Assembly: GCF_964355755.1 (NCBI RefSeq)
Contig: NC_092675.1
Span: 1,245,001-1,309,000 of the forward strand
Length of the DNA stretch: 64,000 bases
Source: Antedon mediterranea
Taxonomy: Eukaryota > Echinodermata > Crinoidea > Comatulida > Antedonidae
Direction of reading: 5' to 3'
Program-made: the position numbers and the translations under genes
The notes under the pieces: model-generated
The model's input: the letters and a program-made list of their open reading frames with translations, nothing else
Databases searched by the model: none
What the model was told of the DNA's origin: nothing
Shown here: positions 4,780 through 53,079 of the stretch, piece by piece
How the letters are laid out: each line of letters begins with the position of its first letter
Numbering within the stretch: position 1 is the first letter of the stretch

Positions 4780-5434
4780 AATAATACCAGAATTATATAA
4801 AAATATTTCTGATAATTAAACTGAAACGGAAATTTAACAAAAAGGTCATTATACGTAAACTGACGGTTAACAACCTACATAAAACAACCGACGGTATACG
4901 GATGTAGGAAATGAAGAAATACAATATTGTACTACTCTAATATTACATGTCAACTTTTTCAAATAATTTAAATTCCAAATAACTAAAATATGACATTTAA
5001 AATCTAAGTAAGCAGCAAAATTATAAAACATTTTGTTTTGCTAATAGTTAAATGGTTATGGTTAAAGCTATATGATGTTTTGTGAGAAATTACATAGAAA
5101 GGCTGAGCTAGGCTCTATAATTGTTTTGTAATATTTCATTGAAAATATATAATATAAATATTTGAGAATTTGCCAGTACAGTATATAATATTTAGGCCTA
5201 ATCCAGCATGGTATATCGGTGAGAGGTATATTATGCTGCACGATTGACTTAGTTTTTTCCTGTTAATTGTACTGTATAATGGTTGTACGTGCGTATAATC
5301 AGGAGGTTGTCATTGAGGTTTTTCTGTTGTCTTCGATTTCTTGGAGCTAAATAATTGTGTGTACAAATGAAACCAACATGTTTTCCAACGAGTTCAAGAT
5401 GACAAAGGGAAAATTAAAAAAAATATCAGAATGT

Positions 5435-5754: not shown

Positions 5755-6369
5755 TTTTGATTTCGGAATACAATGATTACATGATACATAACATGAAAAC
5801 ATAACTAAAGAATAATTAGTGCTGGGAATTTTAAAATAATAGGCCTAAAGATTGTGAAATACTGTAAATGTTATTTGAGGAAGAATAATGCCAACATTAC
5901 AGTAATTTGATGATAAAAAAAAGATAAAAAGTTAATAGAAAAAAACAATATCAGAATGTATTTTTTCAAGTTATTACTTACGTTTTACCAATGAATGACA
6001 AATTAGTGTATCGGGAAAAAAGGAAGAATTGTGTAACTGAAAACAATGTTAGATAGCGGCAGATTCTGGAATAAAAGTATGTTTTTAAAAGTTTTAATCT
6101 TACTAATCTTGCCTGCATAAGTTCCTATTTCAGAAAAAAGAAAAGTTATATATATGAAAATGGCTGTAGAAATATTTTGTTTATATTGTACAAGCGTACT
6201 AAAATGGTAAATGTATAAATAGAAATGGGCGTCAAAAGGGAAAATAGATAAAAATGTCTTCCAAAAATTACTTAATTATATTAACCGTCCATTTTTAATC
6301 GTTTTTACATTAGCATATATATAGATATATATATATTAACATATATATATAAACACAAGAGGCAAAGAA

Positions 6370-10500: not shown

Positions 10501-11432
10501 GAAATAGAATCATCAAACATATATATATATATTTATTTACTTTCAAATTTACATAAAATTCATACCATGGTCCAGTTGTTTGGTGAACTCCTGAGGCAAT
10601 AGCGAACTTGATAACGGTAGTACTCGTCATTTGACATAATATCGTATTGTAGATTAAAACTAACTACCAATGAAGTACTGCTTGTTTCTACATTAATATC
10701 AGGCGGGTGAGGAATAGCTGAAATAATGGCGTTAAAAAGTTGTTTTTATTTATTCATTATTTTATATAAGTTAATTATATATAAACGCGCATGTGGAACA
10801 GTCCTACCTCTATAGAAAAAAAATAGAGAAAACTTTCAATACTCAATTGCAATTTTCAAAATATAGCCTATTGTAAAATAATATTTATTTCCTGAAAAAA
10901 TGATAGCAGAAATCACATCTTACTTTCCTTTTTAGGAGAAAAAGACATTTGAGTCGTGGCATTTCCAAGATCGTTTTTAACAGTTATCCTCACACCGTGT
11001 TCTGTTGTATTCATAATATTCCCATAGCAATCATGAGATGGAACTCTACACTTGAACGTACCGATAGGCATAGGACATATTTTCCATTCACTTGTTAAAA
11101 AATCAAAGCATTATATATAATTAGTATTGCAGCACAGTATTCAATGTATAGGCCTACTTCTCTTCACATATTTCTGTAACACAAAACTGTTATAGTAAAA
11201 CAATGGTATTCTATAAGTAACCAGTCAAGAAGGTATAATATATCATAGTTTCTTTATAATAATGTGTCCACCCCATTTGTGGGATGTGTAAACAATACTT
11301 CTTACCCTTGTTTATGTTCATATTCAAATATATAAGTTTCTACTAGATTTGTATCTTCGACCTTTGACCACACACATACATAGTTGACAGCATCGGTTGA
11401 CGAACATGTAAGTATTGGCTTAGTTGGTGCCA
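7584..11432 (-). CDS. module F: cytokine-binding pair, one FN3 domain, stalk, TM/box 1, cytoplasmic tail
   Basis: Domain 1: 11306-11432 (TCSSTDAVNYVCVW) and 10924-11090. Domain 2: 10566-10717 and 10081-10231 (NEWSDWGPTTSTQ). One FN3 in two exons, 9780-9911 and 9360-9533. A 72-nt stalk exon, 8773-8844. TM/box 1, 8313-8446 (hydrophobic run then KYFRSWPEPRIPII). Tail, 7584-8099. Oddities: the FN3 C-strand Trp (ISWTPP in receptors A and B) is Cys here (ISCQPP), and the tail motif GYVP of A, B and C has become TYVY. The SSDQGFHDMS tail motif shared by A, B and C is absent. The stalk exon is the weakest call: its donor is GTAATG and it has no homologue in B. Confidence 0.75.
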
Positions 11433-12619: not shown

Positions 12620-15600
12620 ACAGTGTACGCATCTGGCTATTATTATTATATCGATATGCTGCTGATGATGCTGATGCTGCTGCTGCTGATGATGATGATG
12701 CTAATTCAGCTGCTACTGCTGATGCTGCTGATGCTGTTGGTGATGCTAATACAGCTGCTGCTGCTGCTGCTGATGATGATGATATATGGTACTTAGATGT
12801 TAAAATCTAAGATGAATGACAACCATAGCTTATACAATTTCACTTACCTCTGTCCAATTGTCATCTGTATGATTCTTGCAGTAACGAATTTGGTAACGCA
12901 AAGTGTTTTTATAGTGAGTAATATCTGGTTGTAATTCAACGTTAATTTCCAATGATCTTTTTTTCCGTTCTACCTTCTTAATTCTTGGTGGAAATGGGAT
13001 GGCAGCTAAAAAAACAATAACATTTAGCATGTTTGTTTTTATTGTTGCTGTTGTGGTTGTTGTTGGTTCCCCTACAGGCATACCGTACATATTTCATTAA
13101 ACTGAAATGTAAATTATATTATTAATAATAAACTTTTTCTTACCCATGTCAGGATTAAAAGAACGTTGGGTTGAAACATTACCAAGATAATTGGTAACCG
13201 TTACCCTGATGCGATGGTTAGTTCCTGGGTTAAAATAATTTCCATCATCGTCTTGAAGCGGAACATTACACTTAAATTGACCTACATATTCAGGGCAGGT
13301 TCGCCAAGGACTTCCGTTTAAAAAAATTAGAGAATCTGGTCTTTAACATGTTTGTTTGAAATACACATGGTACAATCATAATTAATTAATGATTTATCAC
13401 AACAAAATGTATATAATTATTACTGACAACAATTTTAACAAGTCTTCTTCGCATCTGTTACACTGCAGTACAAAGTTACAATTACTTTGTTGTCAAGGAA
13501 TGTCTTAATTAAGTTGTTATAAGCAGTTAGTACTGCTAAAACATAATAAAAACTTGGTAATATTTGTACATGCTTTTACTTTACTGTGCCATTTTGCAAT
13601 TTCAATACTGTCGTACTCACAATAGCAAGCAAGCGCAGAAATATAACAAAGGAGATACAGGCCGGTGAATAACTTTTCTGGCTGTTTGACTTTATCGTTT
13701 TGATTTAGCTTTTCGCTCGTATCTCCATCGAGATCCTGCCACTGATACCCACAGCACTTTCAGTAATTTGTCTTCGAAATTAAACACTACTTACGTTTCA
13801 TACTTGTATTCAAATATATATGTATCTCTTAAATTTGTGAACTCAATCTTTGACCACTCACACCAATAATCAACAATATTTGTTGAAAAACAGTTGAGTG
13901 TTGGTTTCGTAGTTGGCGCCACTGTAAATGAAATGTTATAATGGATACTGATACTGGTTTGATATTTTTGATCCAGGAGATATGACTAGACAATGAGATT
14001 GTATAATATTTGGATAAAAGAAAAATCAAAAAATTTGTTAAGCTTTGTCTGGACTTGGTTCTCACTAGAGATGCAAGGCATAGACGTAGACAAGCGATTC
14101 GACCAATGACAAGCAACAGTTCGAATAATCCATCGCTTGTGATTGTTTAAATCACTTACGTTGCACATACGTTATTCCGTTGCGTCTGTCTAGTGAGAAC
14201 CAAGCTGAATGAATGTTAGTGCAATGACGTAGTGCTTGTAGTGATTTGACCAAGCACAAGCAATGGATTATCCAATTTTACAACTCCCTGTCCAAACTGC
14301 CTCTTGCGTTGCATCTACATCATTGCTTTGCTTGTGTAATGGGAAAGAAAGACAGAGTCGTTTTGAATAGAAAATAGTATAGGCCTAAGCACTAAACATC
14401 CCGTCTTCCATTTTGTGTAATGAACCAAGTTTTATTACAGCTTGGTAATCATAGTCATGACTATCTCATCACATGGAGAGGTCAGAATTAAATAAATTTT
14501 GTATTGATAAATTGCTTCTCTAAACACTTGATCTTATTCCTGAATTTTAAAATAAACTTACTTCCAATATGTAAAGTTGTTGCGTGCCATAATGAATTTG
14601 GTAAATAACAATAATATTTATAATTTGCCATCGTTAAGTTCTGCAACCTTAGCATAGACACTTTGTCTGATAATATATCTATCTCCGATGGGTCTATTCT
14701 GTCGGTATCTGGTTGGAAACTAGTCGTCCATGTGATATTTCTGGATTTATACGTAGCCGATATATTTAATGTACAACTAATATTTAAATCTGACCCAGCA
14801 TGTAAGATGGGATTCAACGGTGCTATAGTATCTAAAAATCAAAGATAAATTGTTAAATCAAATGGTGTATATTGTGATCAAAGCTGTAAAAAAAATACTA
14901 GCTACTATAGTTGGGTTTTCATCCAATTTTAGGAGGAAAATTATATAAATAATTAATTTTATTCTAATTTATCTGTCATTTTTAAAAAAAAATTGGAAGA
15001 TTTCTATTAGGACCTAGACAACTGTGATAGATTCGGAAGTACGCATACCAGTTGATGACTGAATGGTCCTTGTAAGAATAGGATTTGAGTATTTACCTGT
15101 TATATAGGTTAATAGTATAGAATATGAGATCAAGGAGAGAGAGATGGGTGGGAGAAGGGAACATCTGATCTTTAAATATTCATGCATCATGGGCTACATG
15201 ATGACCGCAATTGTACTGTATTGTGAAAGTTTTAAACTACATTTGAAATCACTCTGGTAATAATGAAAGCAGTTATAAGTAGGGGACAAGACAAAACATT
15301 TTTTATGCAAAGAAGACATATTACAATAAGGATAGATCAAAAACCACCAAGGAGGTGGTGCATTACCATCACGCAAACTTACTTATCTGCTTTTTCATAA
15401 CTTCTGTTTTTCCAATAGAATTAAACACAACGACACTAATATAAAACTGTTCAAACATTGACATTTCTGTAGGAAAATAAAATAAACGTTAACAAAAGTT
15501 TGTGTAAAAGCAGTTTGATAAGCAATATATATAAGAAGAAAACGAGAAAACAAACATTGCAAACACGGGTACGTGTGTACCTGAATTCAATTCAACACGG

Positions 15601-18600: not shown

Positions 18601-21600
18601 TGTTCCACAAGTGTCTATTCCCTCAGGCGTCGTAAAGGCCAGTACTGTATACAGTACTCATAACAGAAATTCGATCCATTTTTTTCCCAATCTGTACTGC
18701 AGAGGTTGGATATAATTTTTTTTAAACGGATAATGAGCTACCGTTTTCAGTCGCCGTATATTATGTACAAATCTTTATTATTGCATTTAAACCACCCACA
18801 TCATCACCCTTCCCTCACTGCCATGAGTAGCGTTGTAAAGCCAGTAGAGGATAAGCCTATACGGTGCATCACATGCCCTAAACGCAGAACAACTTTGGTG
18901 GGTAGGGTAGGAACCAACTTAATTATGAATTGGCTCTAAGAAACAATTGAAAACCATTAGGCCTACTAATTAAGTTGAGTTAGATAATTTAATATTATTG
19001 ACGATTAAATCGAACTTATGATTTTCCCCGAATAGAGGTGGTTTTCACAAATTGTTTAACATTATATATAAACATACGTCGTAGTGTATCGTTACATGTA
19101 CTGTACTATTTCAATCGACTACGACGATGATAGTTTCAACAAAGGATTACATCGCAATGTTTTACTGTGTTTAGTGGTATATTATTTGTAAAACATGAAA
19201 ACAATTAATATTTCGTTACAAAATAAAGAATATATTTAAAAATTGTTCCTCTTTGCACCCATCCTCTTCCCCATCCCTCAACCATAATGTTACATACAAA
19301 ACACAAAATAAGTTAGTTTAAATCTGACTTTTAAAACAATTGGTCTCATTGTGTGACAAGTTTCTCTTTCGGAAGTAATTCCCAGGGTGCTAATTTTAGT
19401 TGAGTACATAAATCACAGTGTCTATTTATTCGTTCCTGTAAACGACATGTATTATTGTCCTGCATTATTGTACATTTGAAGTCGCCAGTTTTTTAACGCT
19501 GAAATCATTATGTATTCGAGAACCATCTGTGGGCACGACCTAGATGGTACGCGAGCGAAGCGAGCGTACCATCTAGTATATATAAATTTACGTAAGGTAA
19601 AATTCGGTAAATCGCGCGTTGCTTCTAGAATTTTTCTTCGATGGTATATAAAGTTGGTTGTACTGATTTTAACCACCTAACATAACCCTCTGTTTACTAA
19701 TTAAGTTGAGTTAGAAAATTAGTTATTTACGATTAAAACGAATTTAGGTTCAACGATTTGCACCAATTACCGCTGTTTCCCGATCGAGGTATACACTGTT
19801 TAATGGATGTCGATGCTGGAAAATAGCCGCACACAATAATGAGGATGCTTCGCATTTACCTATCTCCTTCTACGATAATTACGAAGACAAATCAAATTGC
19901 TTTAAAAAAACAAACTATTTTGATATATGTAATACATTACTATACGCGTATACAAATGTATTGCGATGAATGAATATTCTGTCTCCCAGTACTCCATTTT
20001 GGTATAATGCAAGTAGGTAAATTTATGGGTCCTTGTGGAATAAACTTAAAACCTTTAAATATAGTATTGCAATTCTGTTGTTAGTTATAAGTTTTCCTCC
20101 ATGTATAACACATTTTAACAATACTGTAAATACATATTAACCATTTTTGGTCGCCATTTGAAACGCTGATTTCTTACTGTACGTGTGGGTACTGTTAGAT
20201 ATATAAACACATATACAAACTTTATTACTGACAGTTGGTTCTCAACGTTTTTATTGATTAATAATTACAACAAATATAAACGTCGTAGTGGTGTATCGTG
20301 ACATATTATGTACTTTACTATTTCAATCGACTATGACTATGACAGTGACATTTTCAGCAAAGTATTAAATCGCAAATGTTTTTATTAGTGGTATATTATT
20401 TATAAAACATGAAAACAAATATTTCAATACTGAATAGATAAAAGAATTTATTTTAAAATTGTTCCTCTTTGCACCAATCCTCTTCCCCATCCCTCGACCC
20501 TAATGTTACATACAAAACACAAATTGGGTATATTTAAATTTGGTTCAAAAATGTGTTTTTTTCGGAAGTAATTCTCAAGGTACAAAGTTTTAGTTGACTA
20601 TGCAAACGAATCACATGTATTTTACATTCCTGCGGTACGTACATTTTAAATCGCCATTTTTTACTCAGAAATAACTATGTGTATTCGAGAACCATCTAGT
20701 AATGATAATTATTTGAATATCAGTACAAACACACTTATTATTCATGTATTTTAGAACTTCAAATTATAACATTATACTATACCGTCCATTGCACCATGAT
20801 GTCTCTTGTTTTAAAAGTATTTTTTATGACAGTGACACTAAAATCAACATAGCCTTCAGGTTCTAGTTTTATATTAAAAAAAAAAGATTTAAGCAATTAT
20901 TAACAGTATAAATTCTGCTGAATCAGTACACAGTCGCAATGAGTATCGATAAGGTGTGGGGTCAAAATTGCAACAAAAAAAACACATACATTTCCTAATA
21001 CAAAAAAAGGAATAGGCCTACTATAATTGGTAACCGCGCGCATATGTTTTACTAGGGTCAAACAAAAAACAACATTATCAGTTAATTTGTTACCCAATCA
21101 GATAAAGATATCAGATATTAAAGAAAATAATGTGCGCATGGTCAGTCATTGCCGAACAACCAAGTGCCCAATCATAACGCAACAATCTGTATCTAGGTCA
21201 AAGGTTAAAAAATGATCAGATCATTTTTAAAACGGTTGGACAACATCATTCTACAAAATCTCACGTTATAATAAAAATTCATATCATCTTACCACCTTCC
21301 AGTGTTTGAGCTGAATACGTTGGTCCCCAATCACTCCAATCGTTATACCGAAATTTCGAACGCGCTTGTAGCTTGTACCAAGTGTAGGGCTCAAGTTTAA
21401 TAATAGTGATGGGCTGATTATAACGATTATCGTCATCTGAATCCTGAAAAAGTAATTATGAGAGAGAAAATAAATAGAATTGTTGTGAACATCAAGAATT
21501 TAAGTTAAATAAAATTAAGAAAATAAACAAGGCCATATACATGGCTGCAGTCGCGTGCTCAAGTTAGTGTTTACCGACCAACCGACCAACAGACCGACCA

Positions 21601-24600
21601 ACCAACCGACATAGACAGCTGTAGAGTCGCGTTGCACGCGACTAAAAATAATGCTGTTCAAATAGAAACGTGAATTTTGTTCAATATAAGCATCTTGTGA
21701 AGACTCAATTTGATATTAATAAAATATTAAAACCTATGATAATAATGATGAATATGATTTACACAATATAAATAAAGTAATTTTAAGCAACATGGATATA
21801 GATTACAAGGTGGATAATATAATGGAGAAAATAATTGGCTGTAGGCCTATACATATTCGAATAACAATAGAATATAATAACAGAAAAGAAAAATATTTGA
21901 TTAATGATATGATGATTGATCTGTATTTGGTAAACAAGAGTAATACATTCTTACCTCTTTCCAGTTTTCGTTTGTATCATTCTTGCAGTAGCGAATTTGG
22001 TAACGTAAGCTGTTCTTATAGCGACCAGCATCTGGCTGTAGTTGAACAGTAATTCTCAGTGTTGTACTAGTTGGCTCTACCTTCTTAATACTTGGCGTAC
22101 GAGGGATGGCAGCTAAAGCAAATAATAATATATTTCATGGGATTTTCTGTGTTTTTAGGTTACAACTTAAAACTCATGATCCTTTAGTATTAAAATAATG
22201 TTTTAAAGGAAGATTGATTAAATTATTTTTCAATATTCATTGATTTGATCTGCTGCGTAAACACATTGTTTTGTCTTAGTTTATTATACGCAAGTAATAA
22301 TCTTTACTTACCTATGTAACAGTCAAAATTAATTTGGGTTGAGGCTTCACCAATAAAATTGGTAACGGTTACTCTGATACGATGGGCAATTGCTGGATTG
22401 TTTGCAGAATTAATGTTACACCTAAATTCACCAACTTGTTCAGGGCAAGTTCTCCATGAGCTTGAGAAAAACAAGAATTATTAATTATGAATAATCCGAG
22501 TTGGTTAAGTATTTGAAAAATACACGTTACTGCTCTCAAGTGAAGACCATCTCATATGGTCACCGTGCAATATCTTATGCAGCTCCTATGCTTTGGAATT
22601 CTCTTCCAAACTGCATTAAAGATGCACAGTCGGTGGTTCTTTTTAAGAGACTATTAAAAAAGCATATTAATCCCCGTTTTTCTCATTTTCCCTGGTTAGC
22701 GACGAGGGCGTATCCACTAACTTCGCTTTTTTTTTTTTTTTTTTAAATCCCTTTTATCGTATTAGTTTATGTACAACGCTTAGAGGTTTTACAACAGTAG
22801 GCGCTATAGAAATCGAGGTGGTTATTATTATTGTTTCTAGACCTAGAGACCCCCAAGAGCTTAAGGGGAAAAAGATACAGAAAAAGTACATCATAATAAG
22901 ATAAAGATAAGATGCTAATACACATTTTCTTAGAAACAAACCACATTACACTGGTTACAATAAGTTACATAAGATAAGTTACAATATTTGGTATTTAGGA
23001 CATGTATTACTATATTACATAATATAAACCTGAAAACATTTATAATCAAAATAGAAACTCGGGCATTATATTTCTAAATGGCAGCAAATTTAATAGTTGT
23101 TTTATATAATCGGACAGTAGGTACTTACTGTTTATATTCATATTCAAATGTATATGTATCCTTTAAATTTGTGTTCTCGATTTCTGACCACTCACACCAG
23201 TAATCAATTATATTTGTTGAAAAACAGTTGAGTGTTGGTTTAGTTGGTGCCACTGTAAATAAGTAAATTATTCCATACTGTAGTCAAGATAGGTCATGGA
23301 TTGGTTGGTAATTTCAAATTGGGCAAAGAGGTGCATTGATAATGTTAGTAATTCTAAAAGAAAATGCAGAGGCATATGGGGAACCGAGGGTGAGATGGGC
23401 GGTGCTGGTTGTACATACTAAAATAAAGCTGATCCAGCCAGCATTGCAAAATTACAATGGATGTTTTATTGAAGTTGATACATATTTAAAATGTTATCTT
23501 CGTTTGTCAATCATTTGTACTTTTGGAGAATGGATGCGTATAGCCTACACGTCAAAACCACCATCCACCCCCCACCATAGAAAAAATAGTTCGTTTAGTT
23601 GTGGATGTTTTAATCAAACAAATAAAAGGAAACTTTGTGTTATTTTGTCAGTGTATTGAGAGGACATACGAGTACTAAATGTCTAATGAATATGTAATCG
23701 CATTCTTAAATTTAATCTTACTTCCTATATATATATAGGAATTTGGTAAACAATGATATTAATAATCACTTATTGACCGTATCCGGACAACTATCACAAT
23801 TACCACCCGGACAACTACTCTCTGGACAACTACACCTATGATAACTACCCCCTAGACAACTACCCCCTAGGACAACTACCCACTAGGACAACTACCCACT
23901 AGGACAACTACCCACTAGGACAACTACCCACTAGGACAACTACCCACTAGGACAACTACCCACTAGGACAACTACCCACTAGGACAACTACCCACTAGGA
24001 CAACTACCCACTAGGACAACTACCCACTAGGACAACTACCCACTAGGACAACTACCCACTAGGACAACTACCCACTAGGACAACTACCCACTAGGACAAC
24101 TACCCACTAGGACAACTACCCACTAGGACAACTACCCACTAGGACAACTACCCACTAGGACAACTACCCACTAGGACAACTACCCACTAGGACAACTACC
24201 CACTAGGACAACTACCCACTAGGACAACTACCCACTAGGACAACTACCCACTAGGACAACTACCCACTAGGACAACTACCCACTAGGACAACTACCCACT
24301 AGGACAACTACCCACTAGGACAACTACCCACTAGGACAACTACCCACTAGGACAACTACCCACTAGGACAACTACCCACTAGGACAACTACCCACTAGGA
24401 CAACTACCCACTAGGACAACTACCCACTAGGACAACTACCCACTAGGACAACTACCCACTAGGACAACTACCCACTAGGACAACTACCCACTAGGACAAC
24501 TACCCACTAGGACAACTACCCACTAGGACAACTACCCACTAGGACAACTACCCACTAGGACAACTACCCACTAGGACAACTACCCACTAGGACAACTACC

Positions 24601-26140: not shown

Positions 26141-27505
26141 ACAATGGTTTATTGTTTATAAGTATATTCTCTATTATTAATGTATAATTCAGTAAAGGAT
26201 GACTGTTGAAATGAAGGATTTATTTGTCAAATAAAATAAACATTGAATGTAGTCTACCTAAATATCATTTACTGGTAAAGTTCATGAACTCTTACCGATA
26301 GATATACTTATATTAGATAATAGATAGATAAACTTAATTTAATATTTAATAACAGAAAAAAAATAATAAAGAAATATTATATTTTAATAATTTAAATGAA
26401 TCAATATGTATAACATACTTCTTCAAACAAGAGCTCACGTTTACATAATGTGATAATATAATATAGTATAACACTGTGTATTATTCAGCGCTGAGCCGAG
26501 TTATAAATTAAAATTTTAAAAACAGAAACGAAACGAAAATAACGGCTTTTTATATTTAAAAAATTAACTGTTTTATTCGATCTAGTTTTTGGAAAAAATA
26601 ATTTATTTCATTCCCGAGATATTGGGAGAATTAGGCCTATTAAATTAGAAACAAACTTAATTAATTTATCTTTACTCTAGTTCTCTCTTTTTACTCTTGA
26701 ATTAATTTGTTCATTTGTTCAAGGAAGCCATAAATATAGGCCTATAATATGAATGAAGTGATTGTTGTCTACTTCTGAGAATGGTTTGACGTAACGATTC
26801 AGGAAATGGTTAACCACCACGCATCATACATAATACAGTTCAGCATATACAATCAAGATGTATTAAAATCGTTACAACAGATGGACAACAATCGTTTCTC
26901 AAATAATGTACCAAAGTACAATTAATAAACAAAAACCGGATGAATATATTTTTCAACGTGGTTTCTAATACGATTAATATTTACTTATTTCTTCATGTAG
27001 TAAACACACTGTTGCTGGTTTGCACACATTAAATAGACAAGCAATATCTACATGTGAATTGTGATATATATTTAGCTTTAACCTAACATACGTAAATAAT
27101 TTACCTGTGTTATTAGAATTTACAAAACAGTTTACAATGTTATCATAGAAATACAATGTTATAAATCATTCCTTCGTGATTAGTATTAACGTTATACAGT
27201 AATAAGATAAGTCCTTAAAATAAATTAAAATATCAAAATACAAAATCTAAATAATATCGTACATCTCTATCATAATTATGTTAAGTATGTTGCTGAAAGA
27301 TCCAGTTTCAGAATATTCCATTCAAAGATAGGGGTAGAATAAAATTAAATAAAAACTATACTTACTTGCAAATGTAAGTTTACTACGAAATGAACAACAT
27401 CAAATATTTAAGTTTATTTAAACTAGCATGTGTCTCCATGAACTATACATCCATACATGAACGCAGTAATGGTAAATGAGTTTAACGAATGTTAAATAGT
27501 AGTAA
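26141..27505. other. AT-rich upstream region / probable 5'UTR intron of the D gene
   Basis: No coding exon seen. A potential donor (gcaa then gtaagtatag on the minus strand) lies at about 27366. The acceptor just before the D start codon (tttttagc-type, at about 25686) implies at least one upstream non-coding exon. Confidence 0.4.
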
Positions 27506-27562: not shown

Positions 27563-28108
27563 AATTAGTCTTCCATGTTTCCCGTTCACATGTTATGTGT
27601 TTTTGAGATAAGATTAAAGCTAACACTAGTTTAAAGTTCAGAATGGTAGTCCATATTGACTGCTAACAAAAATATTAGTTATTAGGCCTATTATTAGTAT
27701 TACATTTTTCTCCAAAGTTTATTATTTGATTTTTCATCGCCATTTATACCAATTTATTGTAGTAATGTAGAATCATTCACGTTTGCCCTACTATTAGATA
27801 TGTATTTAGAAATTGAATTGAAAATTGAACCTGCATTGGAACACGGTACTAAACTATCCAAACCTAGGAATTTGTTACATAACCTTATATATTATTAACC
27901 TGAATCAAACAACTATTAATTGCTATCATCTAGGCCTAATAATATAGTTGAAATAAAGTTAGGAATAAAGATTCTCTACAAGTAAGCATGTTTTATTGCG
28001 TTGCAATAAATACTCCTATTGCAGTTAATGAAAGGGTCCGTACCGGCATAGTACCGTATAAAATAATTAATGTTCATGAATGCAATGGTACAAATAACTT
28101 CATGATGA

Positions 28109-29858: not shown

Positions 29859-32800
29859 CTTAGAGTATAAAAAGAAGATTTCAAGTGAAAGGAATTGAAA
29901 CTCTATTTCAAACATACATTACCCTTAGCCCTAATCCACTCAATAAACATCGTTAGAACAAATGTTTTGATGATCTTTGCCTTTGAGTAGCTGAGTAGTT
30001 AAGACGGTGGAACCGTAATTACTTAGCCCTAACATCGGCAAGAGTGCGAGGCTCACTCACTCCATGGTTTATGGTGATAGAACAAGTCTTCTCGGATAAG
30101 GACGTAGGTCCAGTGTACACACCTAGCTCATTTGCACCTAGTACATCTTTCGGGTTATCCCGGTGTACTAGTACATCACAACCACTGATCATAACTATGG
30201 GCCCTCTGGGAGACCAGTTTAGGTCGCCCAGTATAATTAAATAATAACAATTTCATAAAGGGTAGGTTTTAAAAAAAGGCAAAGCTTCTATATAATAATT
30301 TTTCAAGTTATAACGCCACATGATGTGTGATTGTACACTAATATACGAATACGGAAATAGTGAATAAACTATACTTACAACATGTGTGAATTTCGGTTCA
30401 GGCCACGGTTTAAAATATTTATCATGGTATTTATGTTTATAGATGTAGGCAATCAGTACAAATGTCAGTATTATGACAATTGGTATGAGGATATATAGAT
30501 AAATGGCTGAAGCTAGAATAAGAAATATATCGTTATTAGTATAATATATAGAGTGAGGTAGATACTACACCTTCTCTTATTATTTATAGGATGTTAAATG
30601 TAAAACAGGGTATTTTAATACCTATACCACCAAAGAACGACGTTTTATCTTTTTTTTATGGAAAATTGCGTTTGGGTTGATTTACAAATATTTTCATGAT
30701 CAAACTACAGTACCATTTGAGACCAAACGAATACTGTATCTAGAAAACCAAGCAACTGCCGCTTGTAAACAAAAGTTATATCGACAATATGAACATCTTT
30801 CAGTACAGTGACGGATAGACAATGCACATATATAATTTGTTTGTTCAATATGCCATTTTAATGTTAAATAATGTTACATTTTCATATTTTCTATAAGCAT
30901 ATGCATAAGTATCATACGGTATTTGTTAAGTTTATCTTTTAAATACACAACTTATATAATAACGTTTCAACAAAATGTATGTGTCCTATAGTCCTAAAGC
31001 TGAAGGTGATGATTGATAGTCAATTTTCAAAGTATAAACTGGTAGATTGAATTAAGAACTTACTTTCCTGGTTGATTTTCTTCGAAACAGGACTATGATA
31101 ACCCGTTTTTGCATCATTGCTGTCCGTCTTCGACGTCCATTGCATGGAAGTTGGGAGGTTTTCATGTAGGCCTACAGCTGTAGTCGTGTAAGTAGTTGTC
31201 TGTGCTAAAATCAAATAAATTAGAACTATTTTAATAAAAGCCTTTACAAAAAAAACTTGCATAAACCATGGACTGGTATGTTATACAAATAAGTGTGTAT
31301 ATATCTTCTTAAAGTATATTGTAAATACTGTACATTTTAGACAAGTTTACATTCTGAAAATTTGAGCCAAGTCCGAGTTGAGTAAAACGTTTTCGTAGCA
31401 AATTCCTCAACACAATCATTAGTCTACTCTCAGTAATAAATCAAATTTGTGCGAAAAGGGTCTAGCTCTAGATCTGATAGAAGGTTCTGGGTTCGAGAAC
31501 TACTTTCAAATGACTAATTATGTATGAGTAAATCAAAATTCAAATATCTTCTAACACAAAATCACTCTACAAAATAATAGATAACTTACCACCTTCATCA
31601 TTGCTGTCCGTATTTGACATCCATTGCATGGAGGTTTGGGGGTTTTCATGTACAGCTATAGGCATATAAGTATTTTGTGCTGAAATCAAATATAAATTAC
31701 ATCATTTTTCATTCTCTCACTGCCTCTCATTTTTATGTTAAACCATCGCCTGTTTTGACAATGTATATTTAATAAGCGAATAATCTTACAGTCTTAAAAG
31801 TAGTTTGATTAATTTCTTACCTGTTTCAGGATAAAAATAAATTTGGGTTGAAGCTTTTCCAAGAAAATTGGTAACATTTACCCTGAAACCATGGCCAATT
31901 CCAGAATTTAGATTAGCCTCATCGCCATCAAATGAAACTTTACACCCAAATTCACCAACCTTTTCAGGACACGTTTGCCAAGAACTTGAGAAAAATAAAA
32001 AAGAGAATTGAACGGTAAGAGGATTTGATTACATTTTGGCAGGTATGGCTTTATTTTATTTTTTCAAAATAATGTTACCCTTGTTTCATTTTATAATATT
32101 GTTTTGAAATATTTATGCATTAATACATATTAATGAATATTATAAAAAATATGAAATTATTATTATTAGTATCTGTATTGCTTAGGTTTAAAACCCATGC
32201 TTTCTAATTACATAGTTCTCAATGAGTCTTCATCAGAACAAGTATTTTCAAACAAAACTTTATCAATTCAACTATATTTAAGCACGGAGGCCAAAATCTA
32301 GTCTGGGTTCCAGACGGAGTTTTGTCTTAATATTAGTAAAAAGATAAATATTTTGGCACATATGGCGTTTCATACGTATACTACTTGATTTTGGATACTC
32401 CGTCTGGGGAAACACGCACAAGTCACGTGGTTTGACACCAAGAATTCTTGGTGCATACGATTATCCGGTTGACTAGTTTCAGCTGCATGCGATTGGCTAC
32501 TCACTCGTACACCGTTTTAATATTCATATTTCAGAATTTCAAAGACTCAACAACTAAGATGATGCGCATGCGCTATGTTACGTTTAGACAATGTGTACTT
32601 GGGTACATTTATGAAAGTTTCTGAAGGCTAGAAATTATTTTATATACCTAGTAGTCTGGTAAACATTTGATGGCATTTTTTCCCAAGAACATGAAACTCG
32701 TCTTGATATGATAGGCTATAGCTTCTCCGCAAATCAAACATTGAATGGATCATTTATTACGCGGAGATAATTTTGATTTAATTCCCACCCAGACCCTGTC

Positions 32801-35395
32801 CTGTTAAGTTGTGTGCCGGTGGTGGTATGTAGGGCTACTTTATTGGCGTTTTATTTGGCAGGTCATGCGTGCGAGTTGAGTGGGACCTACGAAAGAGGCC
32901 TAGGCCAAGGACTAAACAATTAATAAACAAAACAACTTGGCATTACGATTTTATATTTCAACAGTCTCGATCGTACATTCAGCACTGTACGTACGTCTCG
33001 ATCTTTTTCATTTTGAAACAAAATGATCATTGGTTGATTCGAAATCCATATTTACATACCGCCCGCCCAATATAGCCAAATACGGTATGATAACCTACGT
33101 CATTCTTATCGGATGTTTGCGGTCTGCAAATCGATTTCTATACGTGTTTCACAAGTCTGTATTTTCAGACAAAAATCGCGGTCGAAATAAAAACCAATAA
33201 ATTTAAAAAAAAGATAATAAAGACTTGGGGCAAGTCTAGCCAAAATCCAATGTATATTATGTCATAAAAAAAATATATAATTAATCAACCTCACATTTAT
33301 AATATTACGCAAGGCTATGTTTTTATATTCAGTCTTAGGTAAAGGCAAAGGGGACATTTTAAATGGCTATATATTTGAAGTTTTCATATGCAATGCTCAA
33401 CAGTGTGTGTTTAAAATGACTGGTATACTTACGATTTAGTTTCAAACTCGAATGTGTATGTATCTCTTAAATTTGTGTTCTCGATCTCTGACCACTTACA
33501 CACATAATCAACAGTATTTGTTGAAGAACAGTTGAGTGTTGGTTTAGTTGGTGCCACTGTAAATACATTAAAGTACATAATTTGTAATATGTCGTTCAAT
33601 AATCATTAATAGTACAAAAAAGCGAAAATTAGCTAAATTAATTTATTAACAACATATCTGGCTTGTTACAAATGCCGGAGAGGGACTCCCGTACAGTGAA
33701 CCACAAGTTAATATACATCTTTTTCCGTATTATTCCCGTTTATGCATTACATCATTTCATTAATTAATCAGGAAAAACGGAGTGTAGATCGCGCTGTAAC
33801 AAAACCATATTAAGTTTATTTTTTAGCTGTCGAATGAACAATCTTGAAAGCAATTATTTTGGTTGTGGATTTTTAATTTAACCGATTTTAAAATCACCAA
33901 CAGCAACTTACTAATATAATTATATAAGTAACGTCTGTGTTATTGCTGTGGGTTTAGAAACACCAACAACATAATGCCAAATAATAATTATGTTAGTAAT
34001 ATTCTCATACAACATGTGAAGACGACAGAATTAACTACTAAATATTTAATCATTATTTAAGCTTACTTCCTACGTATACATATGTTCCATGCCATGACGA
34101 ATCAGGTAAATAACAATGATATTGATCTTTGTAATTTGCCATCGTTAAGTTCTGTAACCTTAGCATAGCCTCTGAGTCTGATATGATATCTATCTTCGAT
34201 GGGTCTATTCTATCAGTATCTTTACCAAAACTAGTCGTCCATATGATATCTCTTGAGGTATACGTGGTTGATGCATCTAATGTACAAGTAATATTTAAAT
34301 TTGATCCAGCAGCTAGGATAGGGTCCATCGGTGTCATGACCACTAAAAAATCAATTTTTTGTTTAAGAAACGATAGAGTCCATTAGTGACACGATCACTA
34401 AAAAAAAGTATAACAAAACGCTAAAAAAAACCTTGCCTATAAGGAAACATTTTATTCAACCTGAAACCCTAATGTTTTATTTTTTTAATGGTTATCCGCC
34501 ATCCGATATCTGTAGGCCTAAAGTTAAAATAATTTTCTCTTCAAAGTTTGTAATTGTTCCTCGTAATTATATATCAAGAATCGTTAACCACCTGTTTAAA
34601 ATGGAATATCCGTTTCTAAGAAGTTTCGATCATAATAATAATGCAATAATTATTTCCATTTTTGCTGCTTCGCAAAAGCGCACATCGGCATGTATTGATT
34701 TCATTATTAATGGGTATAACGGATGTATTTTACACAAAAATAACGTCTTAAGAAAACATTTCTTTCCTCCTTGCGTCGTGTTTGTTTAATTTGTTGATTT
34801 GTACTATATTTTGTAAAATATGTATCGTTTGCCTGAATAAATAATAATAATAATAACATTTTTCTCAATAATTACAATTTTATAAAACGAAAGAGCAAAC
34901 ATTACGTGCAAAGCTTGTTTGCGGAAAAGCAAAAACAAAAAATGATTATCGAACAATAAAATGTAATTCGAAGAGTAGGTTATCATTATCAATAGATTAC
35001 TTCACATGTTTTAGGTAAACAATTTACTATGTTTTCCAATAACATAAGAATATTTTAAAGATTATAATATCTCCTTGAAAAAAATGTAGTCCTATTTCGT
35101 AATTTTTTCTTTTAATATGCCATTTTCTTTTGATATAATAATATATTTGTTAGCATTTTGTTTTTGGCAAAAGTGAATATTGTAACTATTATTAGGCCTA
35201 TATTAAAACTACAAAATTGCCTATTTAAAGTTTGATTTTATTTATTTTAATTTTCATATTTTGAGGGACATAATATATATCTACAGTATTTCTGTTAAAT
35301 AACTAGTTGAGATGTTTACCTGCACGAGCGTTGGTATCATGAATGTAACTAAATAAAGTCCCGAGTGCGTAGATTACAGTCAGTGTTATAGCCAT
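29373..35395 (-). CDS. receptor C: short gp130-like receptor lacking the WSxWS domain
   Basis: Eight coding exons, 1491 nt, 496 aa: signal peptide 35320-35395 (MAITLTVIYAL); Ig-like 34067-34342; cytokine-receptor domain 1 33433-33556 (NCSSTNTVDYVCKW) and 31821-31984; two stalk exons 31590-31679 and 31064-31204; TM/box 1 30379-30512 (KYFKPWPEPKFTHV); tail 29373-29858. All phases agree. Domain 2 with its WSDWGP motif and every FN3 domain are missing, so it has one of the two halves needed for a classical cytokine-binding site. It keeps box 1 and tail tyrosines (ESYTNM, GYVPM), the latter fitting a YxxM-type SH2 site. It could be a ligand-specific chain, a partner chain or a modulator. A 5'UTR acceptor lies at 35412. 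Confidence 0.8.
29983..30232 (+). mobile_element. tRNA-derived SINE, family I
   Basis: Degenerate head (gtagttaagacggtggaacc, gcgaggctcactcactcc) followed by the family body to gggagaccag. It lies in the intron between tail and TM exons of receptor C. Confidence 0.75.
31064..31204 (-). CDS. receptor C stalk exon 2
   Basis: 141 nt, phase 1 to 1. Its first half repeats stalk exon 1 (AVxxHENxPTSMQW, SNDA/SNDE). Its end (VSKKINQE then donor aagtaagtt) resembles the end of the FN3 exons of A and B (VTKKTSQG then aagtaagtt). It contains a TAGGCCTA octamer that exon 1 lacks, adding Gly-Leu. Confidence 0.75.
31590..31679 (-). CDS. receptor C stalk exon 1
   Basis: 90 nt, phase 1 to 1, encoding a Ser/Asn/Thr-containing linker (AVHENPQTSMQW, NTDSNDEG). 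The 3' border (gaaggtg then gtaagtt) matches the border of the WSDWG exons in B and D (gaaggtg then gtaag), suggesting it was built from a remnant of that exon. No known domain. Confidence 0.7.
34433..34860 (+). other. unidentified ORF with AATAAA and (aat)n tail, possibly a retroposon end
   Basis: A 118-codon frame (34433-34789) followed 40 bp later by aataaataataataataataa. An ORF followed directly by a short AT tail and simple repeat is typical of LINE 3' ends, but I do not recognise the protein. It lies in an intron of receptor C. Confidence 0.35.
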
Positions 35396-36535
35396 GTTTA
35401 TTTAGTTTGATCTGAAAAGAAAATAAATTATAATAATTTAATAATAAATAAGACTGTAAGAGTATTTCAATATAGTTAAAGTTGTAATATGCGCCAGTTT
35501 TACTTATTTATGTACAGAAGTCAGTGGCTAGTCTTTAAGGAATGGTTCCTTGTATAAGGACCACTGTTTAAATATTTTAATACAAAATATAGTATGATCT
35601 AACAAAATCATACGAAAAATCTCAAATTAATTGCAAAAATAGCATGTAGTATAATGAAGTTTGAGTTGGGGGGCGAGTACACTTAAGGCCGAGTTGACTT
35701 GGAGCATAGACCTCTAAATTAGTAAGTCCATGCGTGGAGTAGAGTTGCCTATGGTAAATGACTGAGACCATGGAAGAGTGTAATGTCACTCTTCCTGCTG
35801 AGACCGTGATTATTTAAATAAACTGTTAGCAATCTTAATCTTCAATGGTTTGTATCAAGTGCCATTATCGTTACATTAAACCGTGAATATGTAATAATAT
35901 CTCATTACTTAAATGTAATCACCTTAAAATTTATCCATTACTTTCTTTATTCTAAAATGAAATGTCTGTCTTACCAGACGGTAACTGCGTGAGTTACAGC
36001 AAAATAGGCCTACTCATTCAAACATAAAAACAGATAGATAAAAAAAAATATACGTAAAATTCTGGTACAATATTGTTTACTAGAGATTCCCACATTGCGC
36101 TATGCCTAACATTTCAGTCATTGTTGTCCTAAAGAGATTATTAAACGAAAAAAATTTCGCCCCAATACGGGTATCGTACGCCCACCGCACTAGCGTAAGC
36201 CTGGCGTAAGTCTAGCGTAACTAAAGCCTAGCAGTGGCGTTGTTAACTTCATCCACTACGCCAAGCCCTAGGCGTTTTATGACAGCTACGCACAATGTAG
36301 TATGAAATTAATTTAATAAAAACTTAAAAACGTTAAACTTGCTCCAGGAAAAAAATTTGTCATATAATTATTGATATATATTATATACCTACTTATAACA
36401 TTCGGTTGTCAAGATCCAATCGTACGCTATCGACCCAGCTCTGCATCCCTGACAACACACATTCAATTGAGAATAAATCTAAACAGATCAGCTGTATACA
36501 TGCTACATACATACTCTACAATACGTAATTATTTT

Positions 36536-36600: not shown

Positions 36601-38633
36601 TGAAATACATTATTTGAGGTAAATTGGGGTCAACATTCTCAAGTTCAAAATGGCGGTAAAAGTAAAATAAATATTAACTAGAATTTAATTCATCGAATTT
36701 GACGAATTAATAGAATTGTAGGTGATCACTTTATAAGTTTACTGACATTTAATTTTTTTTAAACGATTCACGTATTTTTTGTAAAAAATTTTTACAACTA
36801 TTTAAAACTTCTGGTGACTAATGTTAAGCCTTTTTTCTGTTTTAGGGCAGTGAAGAAGTGAACCATCAACTGCCATGTTTTGTTCGAAAGTCATTCAGTT
36901 TATGAATATATGTAATGTAATAATTATATAATGTTTACCGATCATCATTTCGTTATCATAACGTTCGTGGATCTCTATATTCAATCATTCTATCATTTGG
37001 TGATTATTAATTTTCATTATGTATTCAAATCACTTCGCACGTCATTCATATTAATGTATTTATAAATAATGACTTTCAACTTCCTTCATTTCATTATTAA
37101 TAGATAATAGCTTTGCACGTCATTCGTTGTTTTTAATTATTTATAGGCCCAGATAATGACTTCGTGGAACGGAGAAAGAAAGAAGGAGCAAGATGATGAG
37201 TTCATGTTATATTTAACATCATAATTAACATGGCTGTTAAAATGTTTCATAGCCAAAAACCCGCCAAGTCTCATGATATGGAACTTGTTTATAAATCATG
37301 GTTTAGTCCTATCCTATCCTGTCCTATTATCCGCTCTATTTCGGTGTTGGCTGATATTTTTAGAACGTCTTGTAAAATAAGTCAATTATTTTATTAAATA
37401 TTAATATTTTTGTTTGTTTCATAGTCAAAAACACGTTATTATACATACGAACTTAGTTCAAATACAGAAGTTTTGTTTAAGACGGAAGGTGTTCTGTTCT
37501 AGGCCTATACCCTCTCAGTCGGGTCAAAATATGAAATATAAAGCCTGTTTTGTTACTTATAAATTGTTTTCACGGTTATTAGTTACGCCAAATCACAAGA
37601 AATGATAATTAAATAATAATAACTATGACTGAATTGAGTGAGTTACTGTTGTAAAATATAAGGGCCTGAGGACTATGTATGCTCGAATAAAATCCATGAA
37701 AATGGAAGTGAATTGAATAGACTCGTCTCACTTGAATAGCTACAGATGGTTACTACGGTATGACATTCTATAATGCTTTATAATTCCGAAATGTATCCCT
37801 TGTATCACGTCTCATTATTATAAACAAGATAATATATTGTTTGAAGGTTTGCATGGCGAAATCAAAATTAATGTTGATATAAAGTTTGCGGTACACCACG
37901 TATATTACTTCTGAAAATAACTGTTGAGTTTGTCGACATTTTTATCAATCAGCAAGTCCAGGAAACTTGAAATATAAGTGGAAAGGGTGGGACTGGTGTG
38001 AAAGCCAGAAATGGCAAGAAAATATAGATATCGATATTGTTTCACTTTCACGTTGATTTAGATATATGTTTTACGTAATAAGAATATTATTAAAAGTTGG
38101 TTTGTGGTACACATCGACCTTTCGGTTTCTTCTACACATCTGTCGTCTTGAGTGATTTTTCCGGGTTTTTTTTTTACTAACTTTAGGCCTATATCTAATA
38201 ATTGAAACACACCTTAAAGTAGTTAAAAATCGAATAGGCCTTGAAAAAAAATAGGTTAGGAATCACTCGCATCGCTGTGTGTTCAAGTCCCTCATAGCAT
38301 GGATTAATGAATAATAAATATATTAAGCAGATTATCTTTGATTGTAGTAACGCAGAATTGGTTTGATTAATTGCTGTTTCGCTGTGACATTAATCAAATG
38401 TAATTTTCACAAGAGCGTGTTGATTAAAAATGGTTACAATGAATATCAAAGAGTAACCAAATTAAAGATAAGTCTCTCTTTACGTGAAAAATATCCTATT
38501 TTAATATTATTACTATTCATTATTTATAAAGCGCCTTTCCAGAAGATCAAAGCGCTATACCACATACAAAAACATAAATAAAAAATGCTACTAGGGGAAC
38601 AAATACGTTTTAGTTGTTTCTTAAAAAGACAAG
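36601..38633. other. intergenic, no gene recognised
   Basis: AT-rich. Short ORFs only, none with family features. Two TAGGCCTA octamers at about 37500 and 38185. Confidence 0.55.
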
Positions 38634-38634
38634 G

Positions 38635-39163
38635 GGTGGATTGCTATAAAACAGTCTTAACTGATGGTCTTAACTCCCCGATTAAAGCCGGCTTTATCAG
38701 ATAGACGGTCTTATTAAAGCCACTCCTGATAGACCATTGCTATAAAACAGTCTTGGATAAGACCGCGTAAAGTAACAAATTGAGGGCGTAGTTTGCGCGT
38801 AGAATACCAAATAAGGTAATGTTCGTCACGCTTGTTCAATTCACAATCATAACAGTACGTACATTTCTACGCGAGAAAATCCATTCTAGGCCTATATAAG
38901 AATAAAATCACCGTTATTATTTGATTTAACACTTAAAACTCGTTTAATTGGTTGTCTTTGACGATAAATAATACGTAAAAGCAACAAAAAGAGAGGTTTA
39001 AGACTGTTTTAAGACTCCTTCGAGTAGGCTTTAATTTTAAAGACCGTTTACAGGTCAGACCGCGGTATAGCAATGGTCTTTTAATAAAGACTACTTGCTA
39101 CGTCACGAATTATAGCCGGCTAAGCGCTAAGACTGTTTATAGACCGCTTATAGCAATCCGCCC
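38635..39163. mobile_element. 529-bp non-autonomous DNA transposon, copy 1
   Basis: Starts gggtggattgctataaaaca and ends ...tataccaatccgccc-type (tagcaatccgccc), giving terminal inverted repeats around gggyggattgctata. It is flanked by aag on both sides. An almost identical copy lies in reverse orientation at 59231-59762. Many internal copies of aagact/gtctta near both ends form longer imperfect inverted repeats. No ORF. Confidence 0.85.
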
Positions 39164-40723: not shown

Positions 40724-40872
40724 TAAACTCTTTCTACACAATCAAACTAGTTTGACAAAAAAAATGTGCCCAAATATGGTGGCGATATGCCCAAATATGT
40801 GACATGACATCATCATGTCCATCTATGGGCACATCACATTTTTTGTCACATAAAGTTTGTCGTGTAGACAGT
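40724..40872. mobile_element. MITE family X, copy 1
   Basis: Shares tctacacaatcaaactagtt, two aaatatgg/gatatgcc units, catcatgtccat and cacattttttgtcacata with 49099-49243 and 59026-59201. Its outer ends are more diverged than in the 59-kb copy. Confidence 0.7.
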
Positions 40873-45200: not shown

Positions 45201-48200
45201 GTGGTTTTCCTGGTTCTACAAACATTTTAAAAATGTACTTCAAATGTTATATGACTTCAATAGCCACTTACTTTGTGTGTTCAAACAATATTTTAAGAGC
45301 AAGTAATTGAGCTTATAGGCCTATCAAGAATGAATAAATTAGTGTAGGCATTACACCATTACATTACACTACATTACACCATTACAGTACTATTGTTGTA
45401 TAAGTTACTCATAATCACACAAATTGTAGGCATTACACCATTACAGTACTATTGTTGTATAAGTTACTCATAATCACACAAATTTATGATTCTTGCGTCA
45501 TGTTATCAAATTGAGTTCAGATTTGCATATATATAAAGATAATGCGTTTGTGTTCTTAGTTCATATATGGTATGTCTAAAACTTCTAGAGATTACTTTTT
45601 CCTAGTATCCGCATATGGGTAAACAAGTATATATACATTGTAATGATTGCCATCTACACTTCAGACGGTATGTAAACAAGCATTGGGTTATATCTATGCA
45701 GCAAATCTAAAACCTTTGCTAGAGAATATTTGTCATTTTACACACTGTTAAACGGCTATCAATGAAATAGCAAGCAAAAAAATAAATTATACCATTAAAG
45801 GGCACTTACCGTCTGAATGGTCAATTATCTGCTTTTTCTCAGCAGCTTCTGTGGACCCAATAGAACTATATGCAACAACACTAATGTAAAACTCATCAAA
45901 CATCGAAATGTCTGTAGGAAAATAAAATATACTTTAACGCATGTTTATGTAAATTTGCATAAATAGTATGTATAATAAGTGTAATAAATGGTCATTTATT
46001 TGCTTTTGCTAAGCAGCTTATGTGGACCCAATATAACTATATGCAACCACACTAATGTAAAAGTCATCAAACATCGAAATTTCTGTAAGAAAATATAATA
46101 AATTTTAAAACATGTCTGTGTAAAATTGCATAACTAGTATGTATATTATAATAAGTGTAAAAGTATTAACGTACCATGTATGGTCATATTAACAGAAAAA
46201 TTAGAAACATTATGTTGTTCACTAATTGTTTGACAATCACTTTGCCACAGAGTTACTTGGTAACCTTGAAGTTTACCGTTCAGTTCATCTTCTGAAAATT
46301 TCTAAAAACAAAACAAAATTGTTTATCAAATATTTATTTTATAAATATTGGTGCCAACGCTGGTAAAGAAAACATTATACTATACCTTCCATTGCACCAG
46401 GATATCTCTTGTAAAAGTATAATTGGTAGCAGTGATATTAAAATCAACATGACCTTCGGGTTCTATTTTTAATAAAGATGTTTACTAAAATTAGTTTGGT
46501 AAACAATAAATAATTATTGGGATTTAAACTTAAGGATTGGGTAAGAAACATCCATCATTTATGGAGAAAGATTGGAGGTACCGACTTGAGGGAGGGAGTC
46601 AGAATTAAACACAATATTTTCCATCGCATCAAATATTCATATTATAACAGAAATTCCCTTGCTGACCATGCCACCTTCCGATGCAAACATGTTATAATTC
46701 CAGTACATACTCAAGAAAGATATTGCTTTTCAGATGTTACTCTACATAGTTTATCTACCGTTGTATCTTTTTAATCGGACTTGCTGTCAACCAACATTTC
46801 TTTGTAATTTTACGAAGATAAATAAATGTCTTATATTATAACATTTGGTATACATTTAAAATAAGTGAAGTCTATGTATTATCAAGACTAGACAAACTTA
46901 CCACCTTCCAGTGTTTGAGCTGAATACGTTGGTCCCCAATCACTCCAATCGTTATACTGAAATTGTGAACGTGCTTGTAGGTTGTACCGAGTGTAGGGCT
47001 CAAGTTTAATAATAGTAATTGTTACATCATAACTATTGTTAACGTATAAATCCTGTAAAGCAAATTATGAAAATAATTAAAAAATATTTTACCTGTATGT
47101 GAATGCTCAAAATATCTAATCAAATCGTAATAAAGACACAAATTTAGACAGATACTCTTAAAAACTACGACAATAATGATGAGATTATGATCATAAAACG
47201 ATTACTGTGGCCTAGAATTTGCAACAGTAAATTCATATTGTACCTCTGTCCAGTTACCGTTAGTGTTATTCTTGCAGTAACGGATTTGGTAACGTAAGCT
47301 GTACGTATATGTAGTAATATCTGGTTGAAGTTCAACATTAATCGACATTGACGTATTGGTTGGCTCTACATGCTGGATATTTGGCGGAAGAGGAACAGCA
47401 TCTAGACGAAACACATTTTACATTTTGTTATTTTCCACACACAGGCAGCCGAATTCGATATGAAAGTTATACATGATATAAGTATTATTGGTGGTAAATC
47501 CAAAGGCAATTACGGAAAATGTGACAAATAAAATTAGCACAAATTTTAATAAAAACGATAAAGTAAAACATCCAGAAAGGAAGTGCCAAGTCAGGGATAA
47601 TGAGATTATTTTTATTGTTATTTCATAAAAACCATTGATTTCTCTTCAATTAACGAATTTATCCTTTTTATTAATTTTTTTATGATATATACTTTTTACT
47701 TGCGCTAATTCTTATAGCTTAATAAGTAATAAATGTTTTCTTACCTTTGCTGGGATCAAAATCAATTTTGGTTAAGGCGTTGCCAAGATAATTGCTTACT
47801 TTTACCCTGACACTGTGGTCAATTCCTGGATTCAAATAAGTTCCATTGTCGTCTTTAAGTGGAACATTACACTTGAAATTACCTACATATTCAGGGCAAG
47901 GATGCCAGCGTATGTTGTTTCTGTGAAATATTAAATAATTTATTTTGGTAATTTGCATATTCAAATAAGTAGCAACATTGTATATAAGAAATAAAGTTAC
48001 TTAGAAAATATTCAATTTTTAATAGATAAAACAAGGAATCTAATTTACAACAAATTCAATCTTTAGAAAGAAAGCTTTATATGCCCTGATGAAATAAAGT
48101 GCCTTTTCTACACACAATTAAACACTAGGTACTTACGTTCCATCTCCATATTCGAATATATACGTATCTTTTAAATTTGTATATTGGATCTCTGACCACT

Positions 48201-52040: not shown

Positions 52041-52975
52041 ACTGTTTCAATCCTTAGTGTAACAAGAGATTTCAATTCCAACTTTACATGCGTTTGACAA
52101 GTTTTTTCGGTTGAGATTTTATTCAGCAGAGCTTCCACTCGGATGGATTTGATCGAAAAATGACCAAATTTCGACCTTCTTATTTTTCGACATAAAGTGG
52201 TCCCATGGTATGCCGGCACTTTAGGATGAAGATATGGCACTATAATACGTACACATATAGCAATATTAGTGCATAATAATTGGACTTTAAATTCCAAATA
52301 ATTTGGGTGATTTTTCAAAAAAATCCATGTACTAATAGTACAGGGATTTTCTCGAAAAATGACGAAATGTTTATATTTTTCGACATAAAGTTATCCAATG
52401 ACACTTTAAAATGATAATATGACATTATACGTGCACATATAGCAATATTAGTGCATAATAATTGGATTTTAAAAAGGTCAAAATTTGGGTGATTTTTCAA
52501 AAAATCCCTGATTTTCTCGAAAAATGACCAAATTTCGACCTTTTTATTTTTCGATATAAAGTGGTCCAATGACACTTTACGATGATGATGTGGCACTATA
52601 CGTGCACATATAGCAATATTAGTGCATAATAATTGGATTTTAAAAAGGTCGAAATTTGGGTGATTTTTTCGACATAAAGTTATCCAATGACACTTTAAAA
52701 TGATAATATGACATTATACGTGCACATATAGCAATATTAGTGCATAATAATTGGATTTTAAAAAGGTCGAAATTTTGGTGATTTTTCAAAAAATCCCTGA
52801 TTTTCTCGAAAAATGAAAAAATTTCGACCTTTTTATTTTTCGATATAAAGTGGTCAAATGACACTTTACGATGATGATATTGCACTATACGTGCACATAT
52901 AGCAATATTAGTGCATCATAAGTGGATTTTAAAAAGGTCGAAATTTGGGTGATTTTTCAAAACATCCCTGTAGGC
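52041..52975. repeat. tandem repeat field, ~170-bp units
   Basis: At least five diverged units carry aaaggtcgaaatttgg, aaaatccctgattttctcg, acaataaagtggtccaatgac-like segments, and cgtgcacatatagcaatatt (about 52250-52900, spacing roughly 118-183 bp). Small frames seen here only reflect the repeat. Confidence 0.85.
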
Positions 52976-53079
52976 CTACTATACTGCCCCGTCAGGAAAG
53001 AACGACTCAACTTCATAAAAGCATAAAAGTTTTGAGATAATCAACAAAACGTGTTCTTATTTTAGCTCTTCACGTGTGC

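Follow-up and report, generated by a model that had tools for sequence, protein, structure and literature searches.

The window analysed here is a 64-kb stretch of DNA (C6:1245001-1309000) from a 354-Mb, 18-contig genome. It contains 26 exact copies of the octamer TAGGCCTA, one of them in a predicted receptor stalk exon and others in repeats. Base composition predicts 0.58 copies, and dinucleotide shuffles of the window (n=100) gave a mean of 0.50 and a maximum of 3. An earlier sequence-only reading had reported 26 copies against fewer than one expected; every copy was present, at coordinates shifted by 0-3 bases, and the low expectation was confirmed by computation. The features of the window are as follows, with the strand given for the two exons.

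4571..4578, TAGGCCTA, exact match
5193..5200, TAGGCCTA, exact match
5840..5847, TAGGCCTA, exact match
8627..8634, TAGGCCTA, exact match
8717..8724, TAGGCCTA, exact match
9572..9579, TAGGCCTA, exact match
11149..11156, TAGGCCTA, exact match
14380..14387, TAGGCCTA, exact match
18958..18965, TAGGCCTA belonging to a dispersed repeat family, no private insertion (comparison of family copies)
21013..21020, TAGGCCTA, exact match
21842..21849, TAGGCCTA, exact match
26632..26639, TAGGCCTA, exact match
26737..26744, TAGGCCTA, exact match
27683..27690, TAGGCCTA, exact match
27931..27938, TAGGCCTA, exact match
31167..31174, minus strand, TAGGCCTA in the predicted receptor stalk exon, codons GGC CTA (Gly-Leu) gained relative to the paralogous exon (alignment, translation)
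31651..31652, minus strand, plain TA, the empty site in the paralogous stalk exon (alignment, translation)
34513..34520, TAGGCCTA, exact match
35193..35200, TAGGCCTA, exact match
36005..36012, TAGGCCTA, exact match
37500..37507, TAGGCCTA, exact match
38184..38191, TAGGCCTA, exact match
38887..38894, TAGGCCTA, common to both copies of a 98.7% identical inverted duplicate (partner 59497; alignment)
45316..45323, TAGGCCTA, exact match
48126..48131, TAGGTA, a private 4-bp insertion at TA (spacer GG), the form expected of a shorter scar (one alignment)
52971..52978, TAGGCCTA in a repeat unit, adjoining units reading CCTGTACTAT (reading of units)
53280..53287, TAGGCCTA in a repeat unit, plain TA in other units (alignment)
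59497..59504, TAGGCCTA, duplicate of the 38887 copy (alignment)

On the minus strand the sequence of the exon at 31167 is ...TAVGLHENLPTSMQW... and that of its paralogue near 31651 is ...IAVHENPQTSMQW...; their translations are AVGLHEN and AVHEN respectively. Alignment of the octamer with the TA at 31651 revealed a clean GGCCTA insertion, as had been proposed, and the GGC CTA codons would amount to an in-frame gain of Gly-Leu in the predicted stalk exon. Also on the minus strand, a receptor tail exon at window positions 41076-42197 carries ~5 tandem copies of a 31-32-residue unit (DENQNPETKGTQEECSSTNDFSDSEPYTKIVT).

Empty sites were sought by all-against-all alignment of sampled DNA. In seven places, alignments of repeats or paralogues showed that the motif-free state was plain TA. 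Within the window, changes from TA to TAGGCCTA were found at 31167, at 53280, where the octamer in one repeat copy (GACATA-GGCCTA-AAT) was aligned with several motif-free copies, and at 52971, where reading of the adjoining tandem units (CCTGTACTAT) bore out an insertion previously written as CCTGTA-GGCCTA-CTATA. Elsewhere, TAGGCCTA at L044:1536 was an insertion into a repeat with TA in 30 of 32 copies, and further sites at which the octamer was opposed by TA were L048:1618, L018:2111 and one arm of the L001 inverted duplicate. A genome pattern search with a high-copy MITE also recovered one copy reading CCCA-TAGGCCTA-TATGG, the other copies reading CCCATATATGG. An empty TA was seen at 7 of 71 TAGGCCTA sites with homologues, as compared with 13 of 1,203 other TA-NNNN-TA sites (Fisher p=5e-5), and GGCCTA accounted for three of nine private 6-bp insertions in repeat copies. 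The octamer thus arises by insertion at TA.

Not every comparison was of this kind. The octamer at 18958 had been put forward as a fourth paralogous example, but 16 of 19 sampled copies of its family were identical and the others were substitution variants, and the TTTA sequence with which it had been compared had only the right flank in common. This octamer belongs to the repeat family and the example is therefore not an insertion. The expectation that presence and absence would always take the form of octamer and TA stood at the clean insertions but failed at a dispersed-repeat site in L028 and its relatives, which varied by substitution (TAAGCCTA versus TAGGCCTA). One repeat, represented by an older set of 36 copies, showed no scar events, and genome pattern searches with two young high-copy repeat families gave one and none. 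The low numbers in the young families leave the overall rate of scarring uncertain.

Genome-wide word statistics were obtained from pattern counts and from samples. The pattern count for TAGGCCTA was 128,871, as compared with 1,589 for the reversed word ATCCGGAT; the dimer TAGGCCTAGGCCTA was counted 3,605 times, its comparison word twice. In a sample of 168 kb, consisting of the window and 13 spread 8-kb pieces, there were 73 TAGGCCTA places at a density akin to that of the genome and with unrelated flanks. The octamer lay 60-fold above a dinucleotide model in this sample. It was the sole extreme among the 16 palindromes of the form TA-NN-N'N'-TA; the runners-up were TATATATA (7.8-fold) and TACCGGTA (4-fold), the latter being the next word with G or C. 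The flanks of TAGGCCTA closely resembled ordinary TA flanks. A literature search, in which coverage lacked most subscription journals, found no paper that describes TAGGCCTA as a motif of genomes.

A single exact palindrome in such extreme excess is what would be expected of a short site that selection or gene conversion maintains, either for protein binding or as an analogue of the bacterial highly iterated palindromes. In the cyanobacterial highly iterated palindrome HIP1, one exact octamer is likewise hugely over-represented in the genome. Here, in contrast to HIP1, the word is produced by a 6-bp insertion at TA, has truncated companions and decays by substitution. Single-substitution neighbours of TAGGCCTA occurred at about twice expectation outside hotspots, as in decaying neutral sequence, and copies arose by TA insertion alongside shorter, non-palindromic versions. 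We consider maintenance of the palindrome very improbable.

The octamer was strongly clustered, with for example 11 copies in 430 bp at C1:159224-159652. A hotspot set of 14 stretches (5.8 kb, obvious duplicates removed) was picked by TAGGCCTA density only, one of them (L107) coming from a locus retrieved for its transposase. Spacers, defined as the DNA between successive TAs, were tallied once for each place. In the hotspots there were 76 GGCC, 44 GGC/GCC, 16 GC, 15 GG/CC and 5 CG spacers, with other G/C triplets at a single place. In cold DNA there were 62 GGC/GCC spacers and 109 other G/C triplets (triplets hot versus cold, p=2.5e-15), and GC and CG spacers were in a ratio of 16 to 5 in hotspots as compared with 50 to 122 in cold DNA (p=4e-5). 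In hotspots, then, a spacer consists of zero to two G and after these zero to two C, G(0-2)C(0-2), and since the stretches had been picked by the full octamer only, the result for the shorter spacers is independent of that choice. TAGCCTA and TAGGCTA together were counted 95,779 times in the genome, and were at ~2.6 times expectation in samples.

One-substitution neighbours of the GGCC core were found at six places in the hotspots, which matches expectation, so that the GGC/GCC spacers there are not decayed GGCC. The shorter spacers are primary products. Two of the shorter forms were also caught directly in alignments, as an insertion converting TA to TAGGCTA in L034 (TA in 16 of 18 copies) and one converting TA to TAGGTA at window position 48126. 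The excess of substitution neighbours outside hotspots indicates that many isolated scars are older, and the hotspots look younger than these. Longer spacers were rare: GGGCC/GGCCC occurred at three places in hotspots as compared with 76 for GGCC, and TAGGGCCCTA was absent, indicating that each end gives at most two bases.

Ordinary repeat biology, in which a TAGGCC hexamer multiplies by replication slippage and is carried along in dispersed repeats and tandem arrays, with mutation in addition, would account for the dimers and longer arrays that exist, and for certain copies that lie in tandem arrays or, like 18958, in a dispersed family. Part of the genomic TAGGCCTA copies were indeed inside tandem arrays. 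However, nearly all sampled copies were lone octamers with unrelated flanks, and slippage can neither make the first TAGGCC unit from TA nor produce GGC, GCC and GC spacers at separate TAs. The empty-site alignments also disfavour this explanation, which we regard as improbable.

The tandem arrays at C1:813816-816220 and C1:904701-905152, with units of 27-30 bp and 34 bp respectively and TAGGCCTA in each unit, would be scars captured into satellites. The near-identical duplicates L094:260-290 and L095:238-268 each carried four-unit TAGGCC arrays, with a CTA difference exactly at the array end. A ~2-kb element in a TAGGCCTA hotspot (L092:740-2750, C1:80289-82299) had inverted ends composed of tandem AGTCGCCCCATCGCA-like units.

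Insertion at TA and the spacer series suggest that TAGGCCTA is, rather probably, the excision footprint of a TA-targeting cut-and-paste DNA transposon with 5'-GG...CC-3' termini. Such an element would insert at TA and duplicate it. When the element leaves, its transposase would cut the non-transferred strand at a point two nucleotides into each terminus. The resulting ends, ...TA-GG and CC-TA, would then be sealed by end joining to TA-GGCC-TA. Loss of bases at one or both ends would yield TA-GGC-TA, TA-GCC-TA, TA-GC-TA, TA-GG-TA and the like. Each scar would make two TAs from one, providing more targets in scarred regions and helping to build hotspots, so that local enrichment may feed itself. 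The transposon would have Tc1/mariner-like chemistry, a high germline excision rate and a low copy number.

The stagger of the cut is two nucleotides in Tc1 and Tc3 and three in Sleeping Beauty, and the usual ends of the IS630-Tc1-mariner superfamily are of the CAGT type. The events described here took place at TA and left TA on both sides of the added bases (GGCCTA insertion), with a spacer of ~2-4 bp and trimmed variants (GGCC, GGC/GCC, GC, GG/CC). Insertion strictly at TA is characteristic of the superfamily, with a stagger of three nucleotides in Mos1 (PMC5481204), and Tc1/mariner elements leave footprints of 2-4 bp (PMC7913693). Our sites are thus like Tc1/Tc3-type footprints in the TA target, the TA duplication and the 2-4 bp end-derived spacer (PMC7913693, PMC5481204). 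They are unlike them in that GGCC implies GG ends, in the dense hotspots, and in the presence of >100,000 scars with no intact element in the sampled DNA.

A search for intact transposons with 5'-TA-GG...CC-TA-3' termini had also been proposed by the sequence-only reading: no such inverted-end element was present in ~316 kb (~0.1% of the genome), and no GG...CC-ended element at 11 transposase loci (4 DDE_3 Tc1-like, 7 DDE_1 pogo-like). With ~0.1% of the genome read, a low-copy element would easily be missed. The genome has eight Tc1-like DDE_3 loci and 47 pogo-like DDE_1 loci; GG ends were absent from the four and seven read. The Tc1-like L101 ended in AAYATATTTAARATGGAGG at TA, and the ends of the pogo element L104 at TA read CAGTAGAACC, also given as CAGTAGAACCTCCATTTTACGTAC. 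The mariner Transposase_1 domain had no match in the genome, and control genomes were equally without a match. The sample held no convincing TA-flanked inverted repeats with GG ends, clustering of all TAGG-plus-24-base words for a family starting TA|GG returned ordinary internal repeat sequence only, and repeat copies contained no long insertions bounded by TAGG...CCTA. The claim of an excision footprint gained support, well beyond that available to the sequence-only reading, from the clean TA insertions, the trimming series and the TAGGCTA and TAGGTA events, and, as the element itself was not found, the transposon is something we infer.

Other results also count against a footprint. In known animal elements intact copies usually far outnumber footprints, and the ratio is inverted here. 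GC spacers in hotspots (16) exceeded the six expected under independent trimming, and single-G and single-C spacers were also above that prediction, partly from TAG trinucleotide runs. As to the ratio, neutral scars fix at their rate of origin, and it can be argued that >100,000 of them could in principle come from a family with few members and very high mobility.

The main rival is a break-and-add process without an element. Germline breaks staggered at TA, made by a nuclease or domesticated transposase, would receive up to two G per 3' end, supplied by an activity that needs no template or resembles telomerase, and end joining would give TA-G(0-2)C(0-2)-TA. This predicts the same G-then-C series and explains the lack of an intact GG...CC element in the searched DNA. 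It resembles the N-additions that occur at V(D)J junctions, since junctions of G followed by C would result if 3' ends were extended by G, but differs from them in being sharply limited to two bases on each side and strictly confined to a TA context. Non-templated addition normally yields a broad range of lengths, and if telomerase were copying TTAGGG, the telomere repeat seen in L011, the addition of three G would be anticipated. The two-base limit (GGGCC/GGCCC 3 versus GGCC 76; TAGGGCCCTA 0) speaks against this rival, which we consider possible but rather unlikely. It also seems unlikely that a germline process, possibly driven by a domesticated transposase and not by a resident element, cuts TA again and again and inserts GGCC, whole or trimmed, between the duplicated TAs, thereby producing self-feeding hotspots and two-codon insertions and acting as a major source of small insertions.

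Other candidates were rejected. Insertion of telomere-derived sequence was dismissed because the repeats at the start of contig C3 (L011) are CCCTAA/TTAGGG, not TAGGCC. PHIS elements (PIF/Harbinger, ISL2EU and others) have target duplications of TWA, AT, ANT, CWG or TNA (PMC4482050), and the duplicated bases here are TA with unconstrained flanks. A MITE-like 140-bp stretch in L102 has TAGGCCTAGGCCTA at both ends, and its inverted similarity is confined to the motif. L102 also shares with L103, on a different chromosome, a pogo-transposase segment that is 99.7% identical over 3.1 kb and carries the same two TAGGCCTA dimers in both.

The pogo/Tigger-type elements of the same genome (L104, CAGTAGAACC at TA) also target TA, but their scar would have CAG/CTG instead of GGCC. 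TACAGTA/TACTGTA, which was only 3-fold over expectation (window position 18650 and genome-wide) and also appeared as private 5-bp insertions converting TA to TACAGTA, is likely to represent a second scar type, weaker than the first, made up of the classical three-base footprints of pogo/Tc1.

Transposon scars are normally studied locus by locus. On the footprint reading they would here dominate the word content of a 354-Mb animal genome, with >100,000 octamers and tens of thousands of shorter forms from a source that is rare or gone. Such scars would be a fossil archive of cut-and-paste events, would show in nature how staggered ends are trimmed by germline end joining, and would give transposition a way of adding in-frame codons to genes. 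The window also contains three copies of a very abundant MITE of ~165 bp with ends AAGCTCTGTCTACACTATCAAAC (40721-40871, 49094-49239 and 59020-59205), which had ~20 matches in the ~300 kb sampled.
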